Source of the DNA: Solibacteraceae bacterium | GTDB taxonomy: Bacteria > Acidobacteriota > Terriglobia > Bryobacterales > Bryobacteraceae | Assembly (NCBI GenBank): GCA_026984795.1 | Contig: JALSRK010000050.1 | Location: forward strand, 1 to 64,000 | Direction: 5' to 3' | Length of the DNA stretch: 64,000 bases | Part shown: piece after piece, positions 10,995 through 20,652 of the stretch | Position numbering within the stretch: position 1 is the stretch's first letter | Layout of the letters: every line of letters starts with the position of its first letter | Notes under the pieces: model-generated | Told to the model about the DNA's origin: nothing | Database searches by the model: none | The model's input: only the letters and a program-made list of their open reading frames with translations | Position numbers and translations under genes: made by a program

Positions 10995-11990
10995 ATGAAT
11001 CACTTACGCTCCGGGTGTGAGGGGGGCCCGGGCAAGAGGGTGATCCTGTTGAACCCGCGGGGCTTCTGCGCCGGTGTGGTGAGGGCGATCGACATCGTCC
11101 GGATTGCCCTGGAGATGTTCGGCCCCCCGATCTACGTTCGCAAGGAAATCGTCCACAACCGCTACGTAGTGGACGAGCTGCGTGCGGCGGGCGCCGTGTT
11201 CATCGATGAGCTTTCCCAGGTTCCCGAAGGCGCCCGGCTCATCTTCAGCGCCCACGGGGTCTCCCCGGCGGTGCGCGAAGAGGCGCGGGAACGCAAGCTC
11301 CGGGTGATCGACGCCACTTGTCCCCTGGTCACCAAGGTACACCTGGAGGCGGTGCGGTTCGCCAGGAACGGATACACGATCGTCCTCATCGGCCACCGGG
11401 AGCACGACGAGGTGGTCGGGACTCTAGGCGAAGCGCCCGAATCCACGGTCGTGGTTTCGAACGAGGAAGACGTGCGGCGCCTGGAGGTTCCGGACCCGGA
11501 GAAGATCGGCTACCTCACGCAAACGACGCTGAGTCTGGACGAAACGGCGGGCATCATCCGCGAGTTGCGGCGTCGCTTCCCCGCCATCGAAGGTCCGCCG
11601 GCCTCCGATATTTGTTACGCCACGCAGAACCGGCAGGAAGCAGTGAAAGAGGTGGCTCCGGAGTGTGATCTTCTGCTCGTGGTGGGTTCCCGCAACAGCT
11701 CGAACTCGCGGCGACTGGTGGAAGTTGCCCGAAACGCCGGCGCCCGGTCCTCGTACCTGATCGACGACGCCAGCGAGATTCAGGCCCGCTGGCTGGAGGA
11801 TTGCCGGGTGGTGGGCGTTACCGCGGGCGCTTCAGCTCCCGAGCACCTGGTGGAAGAAGTGCTCACCGCGCTGGCCGAGCGCGGCTTCATCGATACCGAG
11901 ACCCGCACCGTGCGGGAGGAGGACGTTCACTTTGCCCTGCCTCCCGAGCTTGCGAGCGATGAGAAAGCCGTAACGATCAGCCGCACATGA
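10995..11990 (+). CDS. ispH: 4-hydroxy-3-methylbut-2-enyl diphosphate reductase (IspH/LytB)
   Basis: The last enzyme of the MEP isoprenoid pathway, an iron-sulfur reductase that makes IPP and DMAPP from HMBPP. The three cluster cysteines are at C25 (NPRGFCAGV), C109 (DATCPLV) and C207 (DICYATQNRQ). The motif SRNSSNSRRL and the C-terminal GVTAGASAPEHLV are also family hallmarks. At 331 residues it has about 15 extra N-terminal residues compared with E. coli IspH; GTG 11040 would give the shorter form. Its stop overlaps the start of the squalene-hopene cyclase gene, so C5 precursor supply is coupled to hopanoid synthesis in one operon. Confidence 0.96.
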   Translation: MNHLRSGCEGGPGKRVILLNPRGFCAGVVRAIDIVRIALEMFGPPIYVRKEIVHNRYVVDELRAAGAVFIDELSQVPEGARLIFSAHGVSPAVREEARERKLRVIDATCPLVTKVHLEAVRFARNGYTIVLIGHREHDEVVGTLGEAPESTVVVSNEEDVRRLEVPDPEKIGYLTQTTLSLDETAGIIRELRRRFPAIEGPPASDICYATQNRQEAVKEVAPECDLLLVVGSRNSSNSRRLVEVARNAGARSSYLIDDASEIQARWLEDCRVVGVTAGASAPEHLVEEVLTALAERGFIDTETRTVREEDVHFALPPELASDEKAVTISRT

Positions 11991-13903
11991 GTGTTCCAGT
12001 TCCAGTTACCGGCTCTCCGGCGATTGAAGTCGAACGGGCGATCGAGCGGGCCGCCCACTCTCTGGTCGCTCAGCGGCACACCGACGGGCACTGGTGCGCC
12101 GAGCTGACCTCCGATTCGACGCTCGAGTCTGATTTCATCCTGCTCGAACTGTGGCAGCACCCGCCGGCGGGCGGCCGGTGGAACCATCCGGCGCCGGACC
12201 TCATCCGGAAGGCTGCTTCGGCGATTCTCGACCGGCAGCTCCCGGACGGGGGCTTCTGGATCTATCCCGGCGGACCCGCTGACGTGAGCGCCACGGTGAA
12301 GGCCTACTTCGCACTGAAGCTTGCCGGGCTGTCGCCGGATGATGCGCGGATGCGAGCCGCCCGCGAGCGAATTCTGGAACTGGGCGGCCTGCAGGCCGCG
12401 AACAGCTACGTCAAGATCAATCTGAGTTTGTTCGGTCTCTACCCGCGCGAGCACGTCCCTTCGGTGCCCCCGGAGATGATGCTCATGCCCGGGGAGTTCA
12501 TCTACCAGATGTCGTCTTGGACGCGGACCATCGTCATCCCCCTGGCCATCGTCCAGGCCTTGACCGAGCGGCGCCCGGTTCCGGAGGGCTTCACCTTGCA
12601 AGAGCTGTTTCACCCGGACCGGAGTGTGCGGCTGGCCCGGGGTGGTGAAACGGGGTGGAAACGCTTCTGGCTCTTCGGCGACCGGCTGTTGAAGCGCTGG
12701 GAGCGCCGCGCGCCGGCCGCCTTCCGGCGGGTGGCGCTGCGCCGGGCCGAGCAGTGGCTCTTGGAGCATTTGGAAGACTCCGACGGCCTCGGGGCCATCT
12801 ACCCAGCCATGATGTACGCCGTCATGGCCCTGGATGCTCTCGGCTACCGGCGTGAGGATCCGGTGCGGGCCGAGGCCGAGCGCCAGTTCTACCGGCTCAT
12901 GGTGAACGACGGCGAGCGGTTCTTCTTTCAGCCGTGCTTCTCGCCCGTCTGGGACACGGCCATCGCCGCGTTCGCCATCGCCCAGGCCGACCCGGTTCGG
13001 GCCGGGAGCCTGCGGGCGACGGCCGACTGGCTGCTGAGCAAGGAGGTGCGCCGGCGGGGCGACTGGGCGGTGAAGCGCCCCAAGGCAGAGCCTGGCGGCT
13101 GGTACTTCGAGTTCGCCAACGAGTTCTACCCCGATATCGACGACACGGCGATGGTGCTGCTGGCGTTGCGCCGGCTCGAGGCCTCCGATCCGGCCCGCAA
13201 ACAGGCGGCGGTGGACCGGGCCATCGCCTGGCTGCTGGCGATGCAGTCGAAAGACGGCGGCTGGGCGGCCTTCGACGCCGACAACAACTGGCGGCCGCTG
13301 GCCGAGGTGCCCTTCGCCGACCACAACGCCATGCTCGACCCCACCTGCCCGGACATCACCGGCCGGGTCATCGAAGCCCTGTGCGCTTGGGGATTGCGCG
13401 ATCACCCGGCGGTCGGGCGGGGCGTCGAGTATCTGCTCGCCGCCCAGCGGCTCGACGGAAGCTGGTACGGCCGCTGGGGGGTGAACCACATCTACGGGAC
13501 GTTCCTGGCCCTGCGCGGCCTGCGGGCGGCCGGCGTGGATCCGAACGAAGCTTCGGTCCTGCGGGCCGCCGAGTGGCTCCGCTCGGTCCAGAACGCCGAC
13601 GGCGGCTGGGGTGAGAGCTGCGCCAGCTACGACGAGGGCGAGTTCGTCCCGGCCCCGAGCACCGCGTCCCAGACGGCCTGGGCGGTGCTCGGGCTGCTGG
13701 CGGCGGGGGACTTGCGCAGCGAGAGTGCGCACAACGGCGTTCGGTATCTGCTCGAGACGCAGAACGCCACGGGTGCCTGGGACGAAGACCTGGCCACGGG
13801 GACCGGGTTCCCGCGGGTCTTCTACCTGACCTATCACCTTTACCGTCACTACTTCCCGCTGCTGGCGCTCGCCGAGTACCGGCGGACGAACGGGGAAACC
13901 TGA
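11987..13903 (+). CDS. shc: Squalene-hopene cyclase
   Basis: A 638-residue peripheral membrane triterpene cyclase that folds squalene into hopene and hopanol. The catalytic proton-donor motif is D383-I-D-D386, and QW repeats are seen at several sites (for example QSKDGGWAAFD and QNADGGWGES). The length matches bacterial cyclases, such as the Alicyclobacillus enzyme with its motif near residue 374-377. The substrate-channel segment GSWYGRWGVNHIYGT is typical. The ATG overlaps the ispH stop by 4 bp and the next gene follows after 12 bp, so it lies inside the hopanoid operon. Confidence 0.96.
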   Translation: MSVPVPVTGSPAIEVERAIERAAHSLVAQRHTDGHWCAELTSDSTLESDFILLELWQHPPAGGRWNHPAPDLIRKAASAILDRQLPDGGFWIYPGGPADVSATVKAYFALKLAGLSPDDARMRAARERILELGGLQAANSYVKINLSLFGLYPREHVPSVPPEMMLMPGEFIYQMSSWTRTIVIPLAIVQALTERRPVPEGFTLQELFHPDRSVRLARGGETGWKRFWLFGDRLLKRWERRAPAAFRRVALRRAEQWLLEHLEDSDGLGAIYPAMMYAVMALDALGYRREDPVRAEAERQFYRLMVNDGERFFFQPCFSPVWDTAIAAFAIAQADPVRAGSLRATADWLLSKEVRRRGDWAVKRPKAEPGGWYFEFANEFYPDIDDTAMVLLALRRLEASDPARKQAAVDRAIAWLLAMQSKDGGWAAFDADNNWRPLAEVPFADHNAMLDPTCPDITGRVIEALCAWGLRDHPAVGRGVEYLLAAQRLDGSWYGRWGVNHIYGTFLALRGLRAAGVDPNEASVLRAAEWLRSVQNADGGWGESCASYDEGEFVPAPSTASQTAWAVLGLLAAGDLRSESAHNGVRYLLETQNATGAWDEDLATGTGFPRVFYLTYHLYRHYFPLLALAEYRRTNGET

Positions 13904-13915
13904 GAGGAGGGCGCA

Positions 13916-15028
13916 ATGAGGTTCCCACTGTCGATGACCCTGGGCATGGCGGTCTACATCGCCCGCAACCGGCTCCGGCCGCGCCGCGAGTGGCAGCTCG
14001 ACCGGGCCGAGTCCACCAACGGGGACAACCCGTTCCACATCCTCCCGGCCACGGCTTCGAACAACGGCAAACGGAAGCCGCACCCGTTGCTCCACAAACG
14101 CTTCCCGCTCGTACTGATGCTCGAGCCGCTGCACGCGTGCAATCTGACGTGCACCGGGTGCGGCCGCATCCGCGAATACGAAGACACGATCACCGAGCGG
14201 CTCAGCGTAGAGCAGTGCCTCCACGCCGTCGAGGAATGCGGCGCCCCCATCGTCTCGATCTGCGGCGGCGAGCCGCTGCTTCATCCCGACATGGGCCGCA
14301 TCTGCGCGGGGATCCTGGAGCGCGGCCGGCACATCTACCTGTGCACCAACGGGATGTTCATCGAGAGGAAGCTCTCCGAGTACCGGCCGGACCCGAAGTT
14401 CTTCTTCAACGTGCACCTCGACGGCCTGGAGGAGACGCACGATCGCGCCGTCGAAAAGGAAGGCGTCTTCCGCGAGGCCGTGGCCGGCATCAAAGCGGCC
14501 AAGGCGGCGGGTTTCAAAGTCACCACCAACACTACGGTCTACAAGGAGACCGACATGGCCGAGATCGCCGAGCTGTTCGAGTACCTCAAACAGTTCGGCG
14601 TGGACGGCCACATGCTTTCGCCCGCCTACGGCTATTCGGCGGTGAACGACCGGGAGATCTTCATGACGCGCGAGGACGTCTACGAGAAGTTTCGGGTCAT
14701 CCACGAGCTGGCGCGGAGGTACCCGGTGAACACCACGCCCGTCTACCAGGACTTCCTCAAGGGCGAGCGCGAGCTGCCCTGCACGGCCTGGGGCAACCCG
14801 ACGTACAACGTCCGGGGCTGGAAGGCCCCCTGCTACCTGATCACCGACGCGCATTACGAAACTTTCGAGGAGCTGATGACGAAGACCCCGTGGGAGAACT
14901 ACGGCCCGGGTAACGACGTCCGCTGCGAACATTGCATGGTTCACTGCGGCTATGAACCTTCGGCCGCGCTAGGGATCAATGCCAAGCCGACTGACGGATT
15001 CCGATTGCTGAGTTGGGCGCTGAGGTGA
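13916..15028 (+). CDS. hpnH: Adenosylhopane synthase, radical SAM protein HpnH
   Basis: HpnH starts the C35 side chain by joining the 5'-deoxyadenosyl radical of SAM to diploptene, giving adenosylhopane. The radical SAM cluster motif C75-x3-C79-x2-C82 (HACNLTCTGCGR) is intact, followed by SICGGEPLLHPD. The N-terminus MRFPLSMTLGMAVYIARNR is the family's usual amphipathic start, and the C-terminus carries further cysteines (CEHCMVHCGYEPSA). The length of 370 residues fits the family. A GAGAGGAGGG ribosome site lies just before the ATG. It lies between shc and hpnA. Confidence 0.95.
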   Translation: MRFPLSMTLGMAVYIARNRLRPRREWQLDRAESTNGDNPFHILPATASNNGKRKPHPLLHKRFPLVLMLEPLHACNLTCTGCGRIREYEDTITERLSVEQCLHAVEECGAPIVSICGGEPLLHPDMGRICAGILERGRHIYLCTNGMFIERKLSEYRPDPKFFFNVHLDGLEETHDRAVEKEGVFREAVAGIKAAKAAGFKVTTNTTVYKETDMAEIAELFEYLKQFGVDGHMLSPAYGYSAVNDREIFMTREDVYEKFRVIHELARRYPVNTTPVYQDFLKGERELPCTAWGNPTYNVRGWKAPCYLITDAHYETFEELMTKTPWENYGPGNDVRCEHCMVHCGYEPSAALGINAKPTDGFRLLSWALR

Positions 15029-15038
15029 CCAGCGAGCT

Positions 15039-16016
15039 GTGAAACCCATTCTGGTGACAGGCGCTACCGGCTTTGTGGGCTGGCACGTGGCGCGTAAGCT
15101 GCTGGATCGCGGGGCTCGCGTACGCATCCTGGTCCGCGACCCCGGCCGGGTCCGGGAACTCGAGGGGGCCGAGGTCGTCCAGGGGGATCTGCGGGAACCC
15201 GAGAGCCTCGCTCCGGCCGTGGCCGGCTGTGAAGCGGTTTACCACGTCGCTGCCGACTACCGGCTCTGGGTTCGCGATGCGCGCGAGATGTTCGCCTCCA
15301 ACGTCGCGGGCACGCGGAACATCCTGGACGCCGCGCGGCGGGCGGGGGCCGAACGCGTCGTCTATACCAGCACCGTGGGCTGTATCGGCATCCCGCCGGG
15401 CGGCGTCGGAGACGAGCGGACTCCGGTGAGCGAACGAGACATGACGGGCGCCTACAAGTTGTCGAAGTTCCGCGCCGAGCGGGTCGCGCTGGAATTCGCC
15501 GAGACAGGCTTCCCGGTGGTGATCGTCAACCCCACCGCGCCGGTGGGCGACCACGACTTCAAGCCGACGCCTACCGGCAAGATCATCGTCGACTACCTTC
15601 GGGGCGCCATGCCGGCCTATCTGGACACCGGGCTGAACCTGGTGGACGTCGCCGATGTGGCCGAGGGGCATCTGCTTGCCTGCGAGCGGGGCAGGGCTGG
15701 TGACCGTTATATCCTCGGATGCCGGAACATGACTCTGGCGCAGATCTTCCAGACGCTCGAGCGGCTCAGCGGCATCGCGGCGCCCCGGCGGCGCGTCCCT
15801 TACGCGTTGGCGTATGCCGCCGGAGCGGTGACGACGGCTGCGGCCCGGCTGACCGGCGGCGAGCCGCGCGCGCCGCTCGATGCGGTGCGCATGGCGCGGA
15901 AAAAGATGTTCGTTTCCCACGAGAAGGCCACGCGTGAGTTGGGCTATTCTCCGGGTCCGGTCGAAGACGCCCTCAGGCGCGCCGTGGAGTGGTTTCGCAG
16001 GAACGGGTATTGCTGA
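15039..16016 (+). CDS. hpnA: Hopanoid-associated sugar epimerase/reductase HpnA
   Basis: A 325-residue short-chain extended dehydrogenase of the HpnA family, found in hopanoid clusters; its exact reaction has not been firmly assigned. The Rossmann motif TGATGFVGWHVA is at the N-terminus, and the catalytic pair is Y139-x3-K143 (YKLSK). The substrate loop VIVNPTAPVGDHDFKPTPTG is characteristic of HpnA. The start is GTG 15039, directly after the hpnH stop; no better start exists in this frame. The gene is followed immediately (TGA then GTG) by hpnG. Confidence 0.9.
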   Translation: MKPILVTGATGFVGWHVARKLLDRGARVRILVRDPGRVRELEGAEVVQGDLREPESLAPAVAGCEAVYHVAADYRLWVRDAREMFASNVAGTRNILDAARRAGAERVVYTSTVGCIGIPPGGVGDERTPVSERDMTGAYKLSKFRAERVALEFAETGFPVVIVNPTAPVGDHDFKPTPTGKIIVDYLRGAMPAYLDTGLNLVDVADVAEGHLLACERGRAGDRYILGCRNMTLAQIFQTLERLSGIAAPRRRVPYALAYAAGAVTTAAARLTGGEPRAPLDAVRMARKKMFVSHEKATRELGYSPGPVEDALRRAVEWFRRNGYC

Positions 16017-16724
16017 GTGCCGCAGAGGACCGTATTGTTCGTGGCGGCCCAGGAAAGGGAATTCCGGGGGCTGCTGCGCCGCTCGGATCCGCCCGAAGCC
16101 TTACAATGGCCAGTGGACTACAGCGTCCGCCTCCGGCGGCCCGGAGCCGACTGGTTCCTGGTGGCCAACGGCGCCGGGCGGGGCCGGGCGGCCGAGGCTC
16201 TTCGCGCGGCGCTGGCCCGGGAACGCTGCGACGCCATTGTCAGCACCGGTTTCTGCGGCGGACTCGACCCGGCGTTGGAGCCGGGAGCGATTGTCGCCGC
16301 CACCTGGATCCATTTGGAGAGCGGCGAGGCCGTCGCTCACGCCGAGCGGCCGCCGGCGCGATGCCGGATCGCCGCCGGGCCGCTGGTGACCGTGGATCGC
16401 GTGGCGCTGACGGCGCTCGAAAAGGAGCGGCTGCGAAAACGCGGGTTTCTGGCCGCCGACATGGAGGCGGCCGGTGTCGCGGCAGGCCTTCCTCCGGGAA
16501 GCCGCCTCTATTGCATCCGGGCGGTTACCGACACGGCTGAAGAGACATTGCGAATCGATCTGAACGAGGCCCGGGACGCTGTGGGGCGCATCGACGACGC
16601 CTTGGTGGTGCGCTGCGCGCTGCGGCGCCCGTTTCGAGGCATTCCCGAGCTCTGGAGGCTGTTCCGCCGGAGCCGGCTGGCGGCCCGGCGTCTCGGCGAG
16701 TTCTTTGCCGAATGTGAGTTCTGA
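16017..16724 (+). CDS. hpnG: Hopanoid-associated phosphorylase/nucleosidase HpnG
   Basis: HpnG removes adenine from adenosylhopane to give ribosylhopane (or its phosphate). This 235-residue protein has the purine-nucleoside phosphorylase/MTA nucleosidase fold: FVAAQEREF at the N-terminus, the glycine-rich GAGRGRAAEALR, STGFCGGLDP, and the substrate-binding FLAADMEAAGVAA, which corresponds to the (V/A)-x-x-M-E-x-x-(A/G) motif of the family. The GTG start directly abuts the hpnA stop. Divergence from nucleosidases acting on soluble nucleosides is expected, and the operon position makes HpnG the best reading. Confidence 0.85.
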   Translation: MPQRTVLFVAAQEREFRGLLRRSDPPEALQWPVDYSVRLRRPGADWFLVANGAGRGRAAEALRAALARERCDAIVSTGFCGGLDPALEPGAIVAATWIHLESGEAVAHAERPPARCRIAAGPLVTVDRVALTALEKERLRKRGFLAADMEAAGVAAGLPPGSRLYCIRAVTDTAEETLRIDLNEARDAVGRIDDALVVRCALRRPFRGIPELWRLFRRSRLAARRLGEFFAECEF

Positions 16725-16727
16725 GTC

Positions 16728-17804
16728 ATGAAGGCGGTTGGCGGTGAGATGAGAGCGGCGGTCTACCGGGGGCAGGGAACCCTGTGCATCGAGAATGTAC
16801 CGGCGCCCCGGGCAGGTCCCGGGGAGCTCATCGTCCGGGTCGAGAGCTGCGGGATCTGCCACACCGACCTGAAGAAGATCCAGCACGATTTGCTTCCGCC
16901 GCCCCGCATCTACGGCCACGAGACCGCCGGCGTGGTCGCTGGTGTGGGGGAAGGGGTGACGCGCTTCCGGCCAGGCGACCGGGTGGTCGTCTTTCACCAC
17001 ATTCCTTGTCTAAAATGTTTTTATTGCGCCCGGAAGCTCTATGCCCAGTGTGATACCTACAGGCGGGTCGGCGTGACGGCCGGCTTCGAGCCGGCGGGCG
17101 GCGGCTTCGCCCAATATGTGAGGGTGATGGACTGGATCGTCGAGCGCGGAGTGGAACGGATTCCGGAAGGGGTTTCCTTCGAGCGGGCCTCCCTGGTCGA
17201 GCCGGTGAATACCTGTTTGAAGGCCGTCGTCCAGGCGGACCCGCAGCCGGGGGATCTGGTGGCGGTTCTGGGCCAAGGTCCCATAGGATTGTTGTTTACG
17301 ATGTTAGTAGTGCGGCGGGAGGCGACGGTCGTGGCAACGGACACGATCCCCAGGCGGCGGGCGTTGGCCCGGCGCTTCGGCGCCGCGGAGGCGTGGGATC
17401 CGGCTGCGACGGACATCAGCGGCCGCGTGAAGGCCATGAGCGGCGGCCGGGGGGCCGATCTCGTCATCGTCGCCGCGTCGGCTCCGGGGATCGTCGAACA
17501 GGCGCTGGAGTGTTCGCGTCCCGGGGCGCGCATCCTGTTGTTCGCCCAGACTTCCGACAGAGAGCGCATCGAGCTTTCCGGCGCCGGAATCTGTAAAGAG
17601 GAGCGAACTCTGTTCGGTTCCTACAGCGCTTCGGTGGACTTGCAAAAGGAATCCGCCGATCTAATCTTTAGTGGAGAATTGCCGGTGGAGGAGCTGATCA
17701 CTCACCGGCTGCCGCTGGACCAGATCCGTACCGGGATCGACCTGGCGTTGCATCCGGACGGAGAATCGTTGAAAATTATCGTTTTACCCCAGAGGACTTC
17801 ATAA
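16728..17804 (+). CDS. Zinc-dependent MDR alcohol dehydrogenase in the hopanoid operon (first of two)
   Basis: A 358-residue medium-chain dehydrogenase/reductase. The catalytic zinc ligands appear as C44 (CGICHTD) with H64-E65 (GHETAG), and the structural zinc site as C94-x2-C97-x2-C100-x7-C108. The cofactor-binding segment VLGQGPIGLLFTMLVV is a G-x-G-x-x-G Rossmann loop. It follows hpnG by 3 bp and is followed directly by a second, clearly different MDR gene. A second in-frame ATG at 16749 would remove seven residues. Neither member is part of the classical hpn set. From position I infer a redox step on the hopanoid side chain, such as reduction of the open-chain aldehyde of ribosylhopane, but this is not shown by the sequence. 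Confidence 0.85.
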   Translation: MKAVGGEMRAAVYRGQGTLCIENVPAPRAGPGELIVRVESCGICHTDLKKIQHDLLPPPRIYGHETAGVVAGVGEGVTRFRPGDRVVVFHHIPCLKCFYCARKLYAQCDTYRRVGVTAGFEPAGGGFAQYVRVMDWIVERGVERIPEGVSFERASLVEPVNTCLKAVVQADPQPGDLVAVLGQGPIGLLFTMLVVRREATVVATDTIPRRRALARRFGAAEAWDPAATDISGRVKAMSGGRGADLVIVAASAPGIVEQALECSRPGARILLFAQTSDRERIELSGAGICKEERTLFGSYSASVDLQKESADLIFSGELPVEELITHRLPLDQIRTGIDLALHPDGESLKIIVLPQRTS

Positions 17805-18845
17805 GTGACAAGACAGATGATGGCCGCCGTGCTCTACGGCCGTGAGCACCTTCGCATCGAGCCGGTGGCTGTTCCTGAGATTGACGAAGGCGACATTCTC
17901 GTGCGAGTGCGGGCCGCGTTGACCTGCGGCACCGACGTGAAGGTCTTCCGGCGGGGTTACCACGCGCGGATGATCGTCCCGCCGGCGCTGTTCGGCCATG
18001 AACTCGCCGGCGACGTGGTGCGCGTCGGCAGCCGGGTGCAGAAGTTTCGGTTGGGCCAGCGGGTGGTGGCGGCGAACTCGGCCCCCTGCGGCGAGTGTTA
18101 CTACTGCCGCCGGGGGCGCGAGAATCTCTGCGAGGATCTGCTCTTCAACAACGGCGCTTATGCCGAGTACATCCGTATTCCGGCGAGAATCGTCGAGAAG
18201 AACACTTACCAGATCCCGGAACATGTCACTTACCAGGACGCCGCACTGGTGGAACCCCTGGCGTGCGTGTTGCGGGGTGTGGAAGAGACCGGGCTCGAGC
18301 CGGGCGACACAGTCGTGGTGATCGGGCTGGGTCCCATCGGTTTGATGTTCGTTCGACTGGCCCACGTGGCCGGGGCCCGGGTGATCGCCATCGGCCGCCG
18401 GAAGACCCAGATCGACCGGGCCGCCCGCATGGGGGCTTCCGAGTCGCTCATCAGCGATGGCCGGACGGACCTGGCGAAGTCCGTGCGGGATCTCACCGAC
18501 GGCCGGGGCGCCGACATCGTCATCGAAGCCGTCGGCTTGCCCGAGGCCTGGGAAACAGCCGTCAAGCTGGTCCGCCGTGGCGGAACGGTGAACTTCTTCG
18601 GCGGGTGCCCGGCCGGCAGCCAGATTGCCCTGGACACTTCGTTGCTGCACTACTCTGAGATCACCTGCAAGGCGAGTTTCCACCACACGCCGGCCCACAT
18701 CCGCCGGGCCCTGGAGGTCGTCTCGCGCGGCGACATCACCGCGCGGGACTTCGTCAACGGGGTGGAGCCGCTGGCGAACCTGCTCGAGGTGATGCGGCAC
18801 CTCATGAGCCACAACGGGCACATGAAGACAGCCATTGTTCCCTGA
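17805..18845 (+). CDS. Zinc-dependent MDR alcohol dehydrogenase in the hopanoid operon (second of two)
   Basis: A 346-residue zinc MDR protein of the sorbitol/threonine dehydrogenase type. Catalytic zinc ligands are C41 (LTCGTDVK) and H65-E66 (GHELAG); the structural site is C95-x2-C98-x2-C101-x7-C109. The cofactor loop is VIGLGPIGLMFVRLA. The GTG start directly follows the preceding TAA. Key differences from its neighbour (TCGTD in place of GICHTD) argue that it is not a recent duplicate and that the pair may act on different substrates or form a heteromer. It is followed by hpnC after 17 bp, so both dehydrogenases are embedded in the operon, not next to it. Confidence 0.85.
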   Translation: MTRQMMAAVLYGREHLRIEPVAVPEIDEGDILVRVRAALTCGTDVKVFRRGYHARMIVPPALFGHELAGDVVRVGSRVQKFRLGQRVVAANSAPCGECYYCRRGRENLCEDLLFNNGAYAEYIRIPARIVEKNTYQIPEHVTYQDAALVEPLACVLRGVEETGLEPGDTVVVIGLGPIGLMFVRLAHVAGARVIAIGRRKTQIDRAARMGASESLISDGRTDLAKSVRDLTDGRGADIVIEAVGLPEAWETAVKLVRRGGTVNFFGGCPAGSQIALDTSLLHYSEITCKASFHHTPAHIRRALEVVSRGDITARDFVNGVEPLANLLEVMRHLMSHNGHMKTAIVP

Positions 18846-18862
18846 GACGTTCGGGGTGAAGG

Positions 18863-19786
18863 TTGGACGCTGCGTTCCTGCTGCCGAAGGATTTCGTCGA
18901 AGCACCGGAAGCGCTTGAACGGTCCTGGGCCGCCGGCGAAGCCCGCGCTTACACCCGGTGGCTGGCCCGCATCCATTACGAGAACTTCCACGTCGTCTCG
19001 CTGCTGCTGCCGCGGCGGCTGCACCAGGACTTTTACAACGTATACGCGTTTTGCCGGTGGGCCGACGATCTGGGCGACGAGATCGGCGATCCGGTGCGCA
19101 GCCTGGAACTGCTCGACTGGTGGCGGGAGCAGCTCGTCCGGATGTACGCCGGCGAGGCCCGCCATCCCGTCTTCCTCGCCTTGCGTGAAACCGTGCGGCG
19201 CCACGGCTTGCCCGAGCAGCCGTTCGCCGACTTGATCCGGGCCTTCGTCCAGGACCAGAAAGTCACCCGCTACGCCACCGTGGCCCAACTGTTGGACTAC
19301 TGCCGCTACTCGGCCAATCCGGTCGGGCGCTTGGTGCTTCACCTGTGCGGCTACTCCGACCCGGAGCGGCAGCGGCTCTCCGACGCCACCTGCACGGGGC
19401 TCCAGTTGGCCAATTTCTGGCAGGACGTCACCGTCGATTGGGACAAGGGGCGGCTCTACATGCCGCTCGAAGTACTGCAGCGTCATAGCGTCTCCATCGA
19501 GGACATCGCCCGCCGCCGGATGAGCTCGGCCTTCCGCGCCGCGATGGAAGAGCTGGTCGGGCTGGCGCGACGTTTCTTGGAGGAGGGGCTGCCGCTTTCC
19601 CGCATGGTGGACCGCCGGCTGGCGGTCGATCTGGAGCTGTTCAGCCGGGGCGGTCTGAAAGTCCTCGAGAAGATCGAGAAGCAAGGCTACGACGTCCTCC
19701 GGCGGCGTCCGGCCGTCTCCCGTCTGGAGAGGGTGTCGCTGCTGGTGGGTACCTTGGCCCGGGTGGCCGCACGGCGGGCGGCATGA
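18863..19786 (+). CDS. hpnC: Hydroxysqualene synthase HpnC
   Basis: HpnC converts presqualene diphosphate to hydroxysqualene in the bacterial HpnCDE route. This 307-residue trans-isoprenyl transferase has the first acidic motif in FCRWADDLGDE and the second in WQDVTVDWDKGRLYMP, both with the spacing of squalene/phytoene synthases. The early phrase NFHVVSLLLPRRLHQDFYNVYAFCR is typical of HpnC. The start is TTG 18863; no ATG is available before the conserved region. It overlaps hpnD by 4 bp. Confidence 0.92.
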   Translation: MDAAFLLPKDFVEAPEALERSWAAGEARAYTRWLARIHYENFHVVSLLLPRRLHQDFYNVYAFCRWADDLGDEIGDPVRSLELLDWWREQLVRMYAGEARHPVFLALRETVRRHGLPEQPFADLIRAFVQDQKVTRYATVAQLLDYCRYSANPVGRLVLHLCGYSDPERQRLSDATCTGLQLANFWQDVTVDWDKGRLYMPLEVLQRHSVSIEDIARRRMSSAFRAAMEELVGLARRFLEEGLPLSRMVDRRLAVDLELFSRGGLKVLEKIEKQGYDVLRRRPAVSRLERVSLLVGTLARVAARRAA

Positions 19787-20652
19787 GTGTCACGCTGGAA
19801 GAGTCCTATGCCTATTGCCGCCGGCTGGCCCGGCGGCGCGCCCGCAACTTTTACTATTCGTTCTTGTTGCTCGACGCCGAGCGCCGCGGCGCCATGTGCG
19901 CGCTCTATGCGTTCAACCGCGTCTGTGACGACATCAGCGACGAACCCGCGCGTTACGGCTATGACTCGCCGGCCCGGGCGATCGCCGACTGGGAGCGGCA
20001 GTTGGACGCGGCCCTGGCCCGCGGCTGCGACGCCCATCCCATCTGGCCCGCCTTCCGCGACGCGGTCCGCCGCTACCGCATCCCCCCGGGCTATTTTCAC
20101 GACATGATCGCGGGAGTCCGCTCGGACCTCGAGCCGCGGCGCTTCGAGACCTTCGACGAGCTGTACCGGTACTGTTACCAGGTCGCCTCGGCGGTCGGGC
20201 TGTCGATCCTCTACGTCTTCGGCTTCGCTTCGCCGGAGGCGCTTCCCCTGGCCGAGAAGTGCGGGCTGGCGTTCCAGTTGACGAACATCCTCCGCGACGT
20301 GCGCGAGGACGCCTGTATGGGGCGCATTTACTTGCCCGCCGAGGACCTGCGCCGCTTCGGGGTCGATCCGGAGCTGTTGCGGGACGGCGCCGCCACGGAG
20401 GCTTTCCGCAGCCTGATGCGTTTCGAGGCGGGCCGGGCGCGGCGCTATTACGAGGAGTCGGCGCCGCTGGTGACCCTGGTCCATCCCGGCAGCCGGGCCG
20501 CGCTCTGGGCCCTGATCCGGATCTACCGCCGTCTGCTGGACCGGATCGAGACCTCCGGCTACGACGTGCTCCGCCGCCGGGTGGGCGTGCCCGCTTGGGA
20601 GAAAGGCTGGGTTGTCGTGCAGGGTATCGCGAGGAAGATTCGGAACCGCTGA
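19783..20652 (+). CDS. hpnD: Presqualene diphosphate synthase HpnD
   Basis: HpnD joins two farnesyl diphosphates to presqualene diphosphate. It has 289 residues with acidic motifs FNRVCDDISDE and LRDVREDACMGRIYLP, and the early phrase NFYYSFLLLDAERRGAMCALYAFNR. The ATGA overlap with hpnC couples their translation. It is the last gene of the operon; the next gene (accC) is convergent 25 bp away. The third gene of the usual trio, the flavin-dependent hydroxysqualene reductase hpnE, is not here. Confidence 0.93.
   Translation: MSVTLEESYAYCRRLARRRARNFYYSFLLLDAERRGAMCALYAFNRVCDDISDEPARYGYDSPARAIADWERQLDAALARGCDAHPIWPAFRDAVRRYRIPPGYFHDMIAGVRSDLEPRRFETFDELYRYCYQVASAVGLSILYVFGFASPEALPLAEKCGLAFQLTNILRDVREDACMGRIYLPAEDLRRFGVDPELLRDGAATEAFRSLMRFEAGRARRYYEESAPLVTLVHPGSRAALWALIRIYRRLLDRIETSGYDVLRRRVGVPAWEKGWVVVQGIARKIRNR

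Follow-up and report, generated by a model that had tools for sequence, protein, structure and literature searches.

Which enzyme converts ribosylhopane to bacteriohopanetetrol (BHT)? In the established pathway to hopanoids, which are sterol-like membrane lipids, HpnH attaches 5'-deoxyadenosine to hopene, and adenine is then released by HpnG to give ribosylhopane, a 5-deoxy-5-alkyl-ribose; the step that follows is a recognized gap, by enzyme, in a much-used bacterial membrane-lipid and biomarker pathway. The question is raised by a 64,000-nucleotide stretch of Solibacteraceae bacterium contig JALSRK010000050.1 (the window, meaning the whole stretch that was analyzed), in which two genes for zinc-dependent medium-chain dehydrogenases/reductases, MDR1 and MDR2, stand in a hopanoid operon. 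A reading of this DNA from its letters alone (the sequence-only reading) had placed two full-length MDR genes at the junction of hpnG and hpnC, 3 bp and 0 bp from their upstream neighbors, and had proposed that one or both reduce the open-chain aldehyde form of ribosylhopane. We confirmed both open reading frames (ORFs) on the plus strand within a tight nine-gene run, ispH-shc-hpnH-hpnA-hpnG-MDR1-MDR2-hpnC-hpnD (positions 10995-20652), with intergenic distances of -4 to 17 bp. On re-measurement, the spacing was again 3 bp between hpnG and MDR1 and 0 bp between MDR1 and MDR2, with 17 bp between MDR2 and hpnC.

The sequence-only reading regarded the step from ribosylhopane to BHT as open, and an account of 2025 likewise states, in its treatment of the step, that no enzyme has yet been established for it, citing a cell-free study of Methylobacterium organophilum (PMC12583986). 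PMC8537080 and PMC10301674 name no enzyme in their passages on this conversion, and we found no paper in the open-licence literature that gives it to an MDR enzyme. In Acidobacteria hopanoid clusters, two genes had been marked as 'ug1', after hpnA-hpnG, and 'ug2', before hpnC, the latter frequently annotated as a Zn-binding alcohol dehydrogenase, approximately 350 amino acids long (Sinninghe Damste et al., 2017, PMC5462960). Matched by position alone, MDR1 takes the ug1 position and MDR2 the ug2 position, both in the window and in the opened genomes of one family group (f2). In its passages on these clusters, that paper gives no function for ug1 or ug2, does not link the two as partners, does not call ug1 a dehydrogenase, and is inconsistent about ug2 in subdivision 3. 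While ug1 and ug2 are prior art, the pairing of MDR1 with MDR2, the hpnG-MDR1-MDR2 trio, the coenzyme split, and the non-hopanoid relatives are new here.

The genomic linkage of the pair to hopanoid side-chain synthesis is strong. It is well supported because the two genes co-occur with hpnH, because hpnG lies upstream at 81 of 102 MDR1 loci, and because an hpnG-MDR1-MDR2 trio survives outside the large clusters. MDR1 and MDR2 are probably partner enzymes of this synthesis, and they offer two definite candidate genes for the gap in lineages with cultured strains. The side-chain linkage in the sequence-only proposal therefore stands, and the reduction of the aldehyde itself we only infer.

Occurrence of the pair across the phylum

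The sample comprised 396 genomes of the phylum, taken as Acidobacteriota. hpnH, counted at E ≤ 1e-60 with TIGR03470, was present in 96 of the 396. Matches to MDR1 formed two bands separated by a clear gap (E values 1.7e-100 to 7.1e-69), and the upper band was counted; MDR2 was counted at E ≤ 1e-110. The lower bands, including MDR2-like proteins at approximately 1e-80 to 1e-95, stayed uncounted, and seven genomes with such a protein (G051, G063, G096, G123, G165, G267, and G346) have hpnH. Close MDR1 was found in 63 genomes (57 with hpnH and 6 without; 39 had only hpnH and 294 neither), and close MDR2 in 66 (58 with hpnH and 8 without; 38 had only hpnH and 292 neither), which bears out the co-occurrence that the sequence-only reading had looked to. 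Fisher's test, which ignores kinship, gave p of approximately 1e-35 for the association; 59 of the 63 MDR1 genomes fall within four family groups (f1, f2, f29, and f51). Of the 67 genomes with at least one of the two, 62 have both MDR1 and MDR2, less than 400 bp apart in 34 and at least 400 bp apart or on different contigs in 28.

Some of the exceptions have a context of their own. In one genome counted as MDR1-only (G385), a more divergent MDR2-like protein (46%) is encoded next to MDR1. Two hpnH-positive f2 genomes without MDR1 (G007 and G273) have their hpnH cluster on a short contig, and the absence of MDR1 there is unsure. Three of the six hpnH-less MDR1 genomes (G113, G211, and G282; 84-93% complete) carry MDR1 within hpn-type clusters, shc being detected in one and hpnG in two; in the other three (G221, G341, and G385), profile searches found no hpnH, shc, or hpnG. 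In 14 control genomes, TIGR03470 matched none at E ≤ 1e-60 and one at E ≤ 1e-20, under its cut-off, while TIGR01507 matched one and TIGR03466 two, also under cut-off.

Gene neighborhoods and the lone trio

We counted neighbors at 102 loci derived from MDR hits, a non-random sample, taking ORFs of more than 300 amino acids on the same strand within 400 bp. The set omits L126 and loci that match another exactly over 300 bases, and keeps near-copies (L120-L122) and five non-hopanoid loci. Upstream of MDR1 stood hpnG (81 loci), hpnA (10), an unlabelled ORF (6), a proline-dehydrogenase-like gene (2), or none (3); downstream stood MDR2 (93), an unlabelled ORF (1), or none (8). The ends of hpnG, MDR1, and MDR2 are mostly close or overlapping, with the overlaps overstated by the use of longest-ORF starts. 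Genes of fetched loci came from a simple ORF picker, which missed MDR2 in L012 and hpnH in L142, L144, and L149. Outside the window, hpnG was labelled by BLAST and a loose hidden Markov model, and eight labels were checked against NCBIfam: HpnG was the best model, under its cut-off, for the genes of L114, L115, L116, L120, L125, L038 (a copy of L126), L168, and L036.

A scan of a contig collection with MDR2 gave at least 586 stretches, at least 573 of them relatives, and the best 80 were examined. Recounted by tblastn, with loci cut by contig ends included, these 80 hold MDR1 (73), HpnC (69), HpnD (67), HpnA (61), HpnG (60), IspH (53), SHC (52), and HpnH (29). Each of the 80 has at least one hpn-labelled gene; at the trio loci the only one is hpnG, whose label is weakly specific. 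The sequence-only reading had named, as counting against it, close homologs that lie for the most part outside hopanoid clusters, and this is not what we found. All but one of the 80 are labelled as Acidobacteria groups (Bryobacterales, Bryobacteraceae, Solibacter, Terriglobia, Acidobacteriaceae, plain Acidobacteria, and some others). The exception, L058, bears the label Acidimicrobiia, but both of its MDR proteins fall among Bryobacterales in the trees, and it is probably a mislabelled or mixed metagenome-assembled genome.

Eight loci (L114-L116, L120-L122, L125, and L126) carry a lone hpnG-MDR1-MDR2 trio, and tblastn found no SHC, HpnH, HpnA, HpnC, or HpnD in their fetched stretches. L120-L122 are near-copies, with DNA 95-100% identical. 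Ten genes flanking trio-type loci were scanned with Pfam, and the six that matched (two each of permease, short-chain dehydrogenase/reductase (SDR), and glnE) include no hopanoid gene. Seven of the eight trio genomes have hpnH elsewhere, and all eight have an hpnA-like gene, above cut-off in six. In the MDR1 tree, trio-labelled rows lie inside the hopanoid-linked rows at three separate places, at one of which (L168) only hpnG and MDR1 are still together and MDR2 is approximately 11 kb off. The separation therefore arose more than once, and hpnG and MDR1 stayed neighbors. Nineteen further genomes have shc adjoining hpnA and no hpnH at the locus, and 18 of them have hpnH elsewhere. In Bryobacterales loci MDR2 precedes hpnC; in the opened f2 genomes with split clusters, MDR1 follows hpnG (L041, L047, L159, L161, L163, and L166) and MDR2 precedes hpnC-hpnD-hpnE (L042, L147, L160, and L162). 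The f2 group is Acidobacteriaceae-like, the Acidobacteriaceae locus L126 sharing identical MDR genes and the hpnH match with the f2 genome G210.

HpnH itself is of two types in Bryobacterales, an in-operon type scoring approximately 400-437 bits (the window, at 428.6 bits, L050, L058, and L061) and a non-operon type scoring 512-554 bits. The latter occurs in genomes whose operons lack hpnH (G404-G406, G408-G419, G421, and G422), which looks like displacement; the f2 genomes carry the high-scoring type. At four hpnH loci of trio genomes (L149, L150, L151, and L153), a third MDR (33-34% to MDR2) comes right after hpnH in an shc-hpnH run, followed by agmatine-deiminase-like and amidase-like genes, as judged by eye, in L149 and L151; L152 has no third MDR.

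Properties of MDR1 and MDR2

By domains, catalytic zinc ligands, and a four-Cys site, both proteins are zinc-dependent MDR enzymes, with the Pfam domains ADH_N and ADH_zinc_N above the curated gathering cut-offs in each. They are only 31% identical over 353 columns and are therefore not recent duplicates, as the sequence-only reading had held. The catalytic ligands, which from general knowledge of the family we take to be C41/H64/E65/E158 in MDR1 and C41/H65/E66/E150 in MDR2, are kept in all 97 hopanoid-linked MDR1 and all 105 MDR2 proteins (C41 of MDR2 in 104, with one gap). The four structural-zinc cysteines are complete in 105 of 105 MDR2 and 96 of 97 MDR1 proteins (one C94R). In the window the zinc sites are intact, as the sequence-only reading had described them.

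The two proteins differ where the second Rossmann strand ends. Position 205 of MDR1 is Asp in 96 of 97 proteins and Glu in one; position 197 of MDR2 is Gly in 78, Val in 19, Ala in 6, and Asp in 2 of 105, and position 198 is Arg or Lys in 102. In MDR enzymes, an Asp at this strand end usually goes with NAD(H), and a small residue followed by Arg with NADP(H). On this rule, MDR1 is predicted to prefer NAD(H) and MDR2 NADP(H), a prediction of preference that implies no direction of the reaction. AlphaFold (AF2) models had mean confidence scores (pLDDT) of 88.8 for MDR1 and 90.1 for MDR2, and the listed PDB matches, 50 per protein, were all MDR alcohol, polyol, threonine, or similar dehydrogenases at 20-31% identity. 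The second-best PDB profile match of MDR2, an NADP(H) ketose reductase (1e3j; TM-score 0.89, 28% identity), aligns to its coenzyme motif with a similar non-acidic, Arg-bearing stretch, although this whitefly enzyme acts on soluble sugars and its identity to MDR2 is low.

Membership in the NCBIfam families listed for MDR1 or MDR2 was rejected, every one of them being under its cut-off (for MDR2, the best 25 of 26 matches). The best model for both was IolM, scyllo-inosose 3-dehydrogenase (NF041097), with 161.3 bits for MDR1 and 186.1 for MDR2, far under 450; none of the other seven operon proteins was an inositol enzyme by best model. L-threonine 3-dehydrogenase (TIGR00692) gave 147.5 and 179.6 bits against a cut-off of 458.35. 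Broken MDR1 genes in other genomes, to which reported stop codons might have pointed, were likewise dismissed, the stops lying at the ORF end in the four loci checked (L031, L033, L157, and L163).

Relatives outside hopanoid clusters

MDR1-MDR2 lies near a proline-dehydrogenase-like gene in three genomes (G066, G221, and G341). One such gene that was scored reached 257 bits, under the cut-off of 500; in G341 it lies 1.6 kb upstream of the pair, from which a gene on the opposite strand separates it, and G066 also has hpnH, shc, and hpnA on another contig. One MDR1 tree places these pairs outside the hopanoid group (support 91), whereas a second does not separate them and does not reject a single hopanoid clade (p-AU 0.18). 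The MDR2 tree nests them among hopanoid rows (88), and a smaller MDR2 tree separates them (82); none of the three supports is starred. MDR2 without close MDR1 occurs in G132, G377, and G389, the last beside ispH. In G132 (locus L015), it is divergent from mtnB-mtnD-mtnC, in which mtnB and mtnC are above NCBIfam cut-offs and mtnD, with no NCBIfam match, was assigned by eye. A replacement of MtnA in methionine salvage was rejected, as mtnA is kept in 13 of 13 genomes tested. In a plasmid collection, the top-ranked MDR2 match (46.7%) came from a Rhodococcus opacus cluster of FGGY kinase, DeoR regulator, dehydrogenase, and class II aldolase genes, and the best 12 of 2551 MDR1 rows were 33.6-36.7% identical. 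Such surroundings point to chemistry on deoxy sugars or polyols and to recruitment into hopanoid synthesis. At L018-L025, pairs of an MDR2-like protein (43-46%) and a second MDR recur with no adjoining hpn genes; an alpha/beta hydrolase and a cupin, identified by eye, are near some of them, and L023 has hpnH approximately 15 kb away.

Possible reactions of the pair

The reading that we favor, as plausible rather than probable, is that the pair acts directly after HpnG. Once HpnG has left ribosylhopane, MDR2, with its NADPH-type pocket, would reduce the open-chain aldehyde to the polyol BHT, and MDR1, with its NAD-type pocket, would perform a further redox reaction on this sugar-derived chain, which could be MDR2's own reduction run with the other coenzyme or the oxidation of a hydroxyl. 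In favor of this reading, Rohmer degradation of cultured Acidobacteria of subdivisions 1 and 3 yielded C32 hopanol, a product that its authors trace to tetrafunctionalised bacteriohopanepolyols (PMC5462960). MDR2 is the likeliest reductase of the two, a tentative assignment, and MDR1 in that role seems doubtful. The cell-free study of M. organophilum is said to have found a requirement for NADPH. A bolder version, which we think rather unlikely, makes HpnG-MDR1-MDR2 a self-contained module recruited from deoxy-pentose metabolism: HpnG would free the ribose, and the two dehydrogenases, MDR1 with NAD and MDR2 with NADPH, would reduce the open-chain sugar and then remodel it, oxidizing and re-reducing it to a side-chain stereoisomer particular to the lineage or to a keto-polyol hopanoid.

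Several points weigh against a ribosylhopane reductase in the pair. Close MDR1 is missing from 39 of the 96 hpnH-positive genomes, although hpnH is a mere proxy for BHT. Among 16 hpnH-positive genomes opened outside the MDR1-bearing families, shc adjoins hpnH in 10, nine of which (L136-L144; hpnH of L142 and L144 placed from profile-search coordinates) also carry hpnA and hpnG in the run, from which both MDR1 and MDR2 are absent. In six genomes with pair members, neither hpnH nor shc nor hpnG was found, and the enzymes can therefore serve other substrates. Neither the trio genome G400, whose only shc match is below cut-off, nor G407 among the 19 with shc-hpnA loci yielded any hpnH, and in split clusters MDR2 is located at hpnC, away from hpnG. 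TIGR03468 (HpnG) matched 10 of the 14 control genomes under its cut-off, which none of 13 genomes tested passed, the window's own included; hpnG was therefore assigned from the rank of the best model and from gene context. Furthermore, aldose reduction often belongs to other enzyme families, and we know of no biochemistry for MDR1 or MDR2. The pair is thus neither universal among hpnH genomes nor exclusively hopanoid. We rejected it as the general reductase of all BHT makers, and since pair-less hpnH-positive genomes are common, it is at most a lineage-specific answer to the step. HpnA, which shares the operon, was suspected of this conversion by Sinninghe Damste et al. (2017), as far as their discussion of it goes (PMC5462960); it is an SDR enzyme, and hpnA occurs with and without the MDR pair. 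Apart from this, another MDR (29% to MDR2) separates hpnH from hpnA in one of the nine pair-less runs (L139), and at the other six of the 16 opened genomes (L129-L134, from families f33, f71, and f78), hpnH is far above cut-off and shc, hpnA, and hpnG were not recognized nearby.

For the exact reaction, two readings compete, a ribosylhopane reductase and a redox pair that remodels the side chain. As a remodeling pair, MDR1 (NAD) would oxidize a secondary hydroxyl, for example at C-34, and MDR2 (NADPH) would re-reduce it from the other face to give a BHT stereoisomer, another enzyme reducing ribosylhopane. This accounts for the hpnH-positive genomes without the pair and is consistent with split coenzyme motifs in two co-inherited enzymes, and with nearest solved relatives that include the ketose reductase and sorbitol, threonine, and butanediol dehydrogenases, which are secondary-alcohol or polyol enzymes. 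BHT occurs in nature as 34R and 34S isomers, according to the relevant part of PMC12583986. However, coenzyme motifs say nothing on direction, and we found no stereochemical data on these bacteria in the open-licence literature; on balance we hold this to be rather unlikely. If the pair does set stereochemistry, it bears on the reading of BHT isomers as biomarkers.

Less likely again is a soluble deoxy-pentose or deoxy-pentitol substrate, such as 5-deoxyribose or methylthioribose, with the pair merely traveling with hopanoid genes. The mtn neighbors in G132, the sugar-type cluster of R. opacus, and the three genomes with a proline-dehydrogenase-like gene all point that way; yet the mtn context was seen in one of three MDR2-only genomes opened, all 13 genomes tested keep mtnA, and both the lone trio in hpnH-positive genomes and the hpn genes at 80 of 80 best MDR2 loci would be left unexplained. 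That one dehydrogenase oxidizes ribosylhopane at C-35 to a lactone or acid is highly improbable: some MDR enzymes are aldose 1-dehydrogenases, and D-arabinose 1-dehydrogenase (2h6e) is listed for MDR2, but this match is weak and 'ribonylhopane' was not found in the open-licence literature. We give least credence to a role of MDR2 in squalene synthesis with hpnC-hpnD-hpnE, an association noted in the cluster descriptions of 2017 (PMC5462960). MDR2 does adjoin hpnC in the window and in the split-cluster f2 genomes G195, G217, G225, and G273; however, it is co-inherited with MDR1, the lone trio joins it to hpnG with no hpnC, and HpnCDE is generally known to make squalene without it.

The operon of the window

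The genes of the run are collected below. The ORF of MDR2 begins with GTG at 17805 and has in-frame ATG codons at 17817 and 17820, so its actual start is uncertain.

Table 1. Genes of the hopanoid operon in the window
Gene and product	Position	Strand	Support
ispH, HMBPP (4-hydroxy-3-methylbut-2-enyl diphosphate) reductase	10995..11990	+	TIGR00216, 336 bits, above cut-off
shc/hpnF, squalene-hopene cyclase	11987..13903	+	TIGR01507, 644 bits, above cut-off
hpnH, adenosyl-hopene transferase (radical SAM)	13916..15028	+	TIGR03470, 430 bits, above cut-off
hpnA, hopanoid-associated sugar epimerase (SDR)	15039..16016	+	TIGR03466, 462 bits, above cut-off
hpnG-like nucleosidase/phosphorylase, 235 aa	16017..16724	+	best NCBIfam model HpnG, 107 bits, below cut-off of 187
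MDR1, zinc MDR dehydrogenase, 358 aa, NAD-type motif (Asp205)	16728..17804	+	ADH_N and ADH_zinc_N
MDR2, zinc MDR dehydrogenase, 346 aa, NADP-type motif (Gly197-Arg198-Arg199)	17805..18845	+	ADH_N and ADH_zinc_N
hpnC	18863..19786	+	TIGR03464, 355 bits, above cut-off
hpnD	19783..20652	+	TIGR03465, 263 bits, slightly below cut-off of 278.6; best model still HpnD

hpnE is not directly 3' of hpnD in the window (from 20652 onward) or in L029 and L030; it does follow hpnD in L036, L045, and L160.

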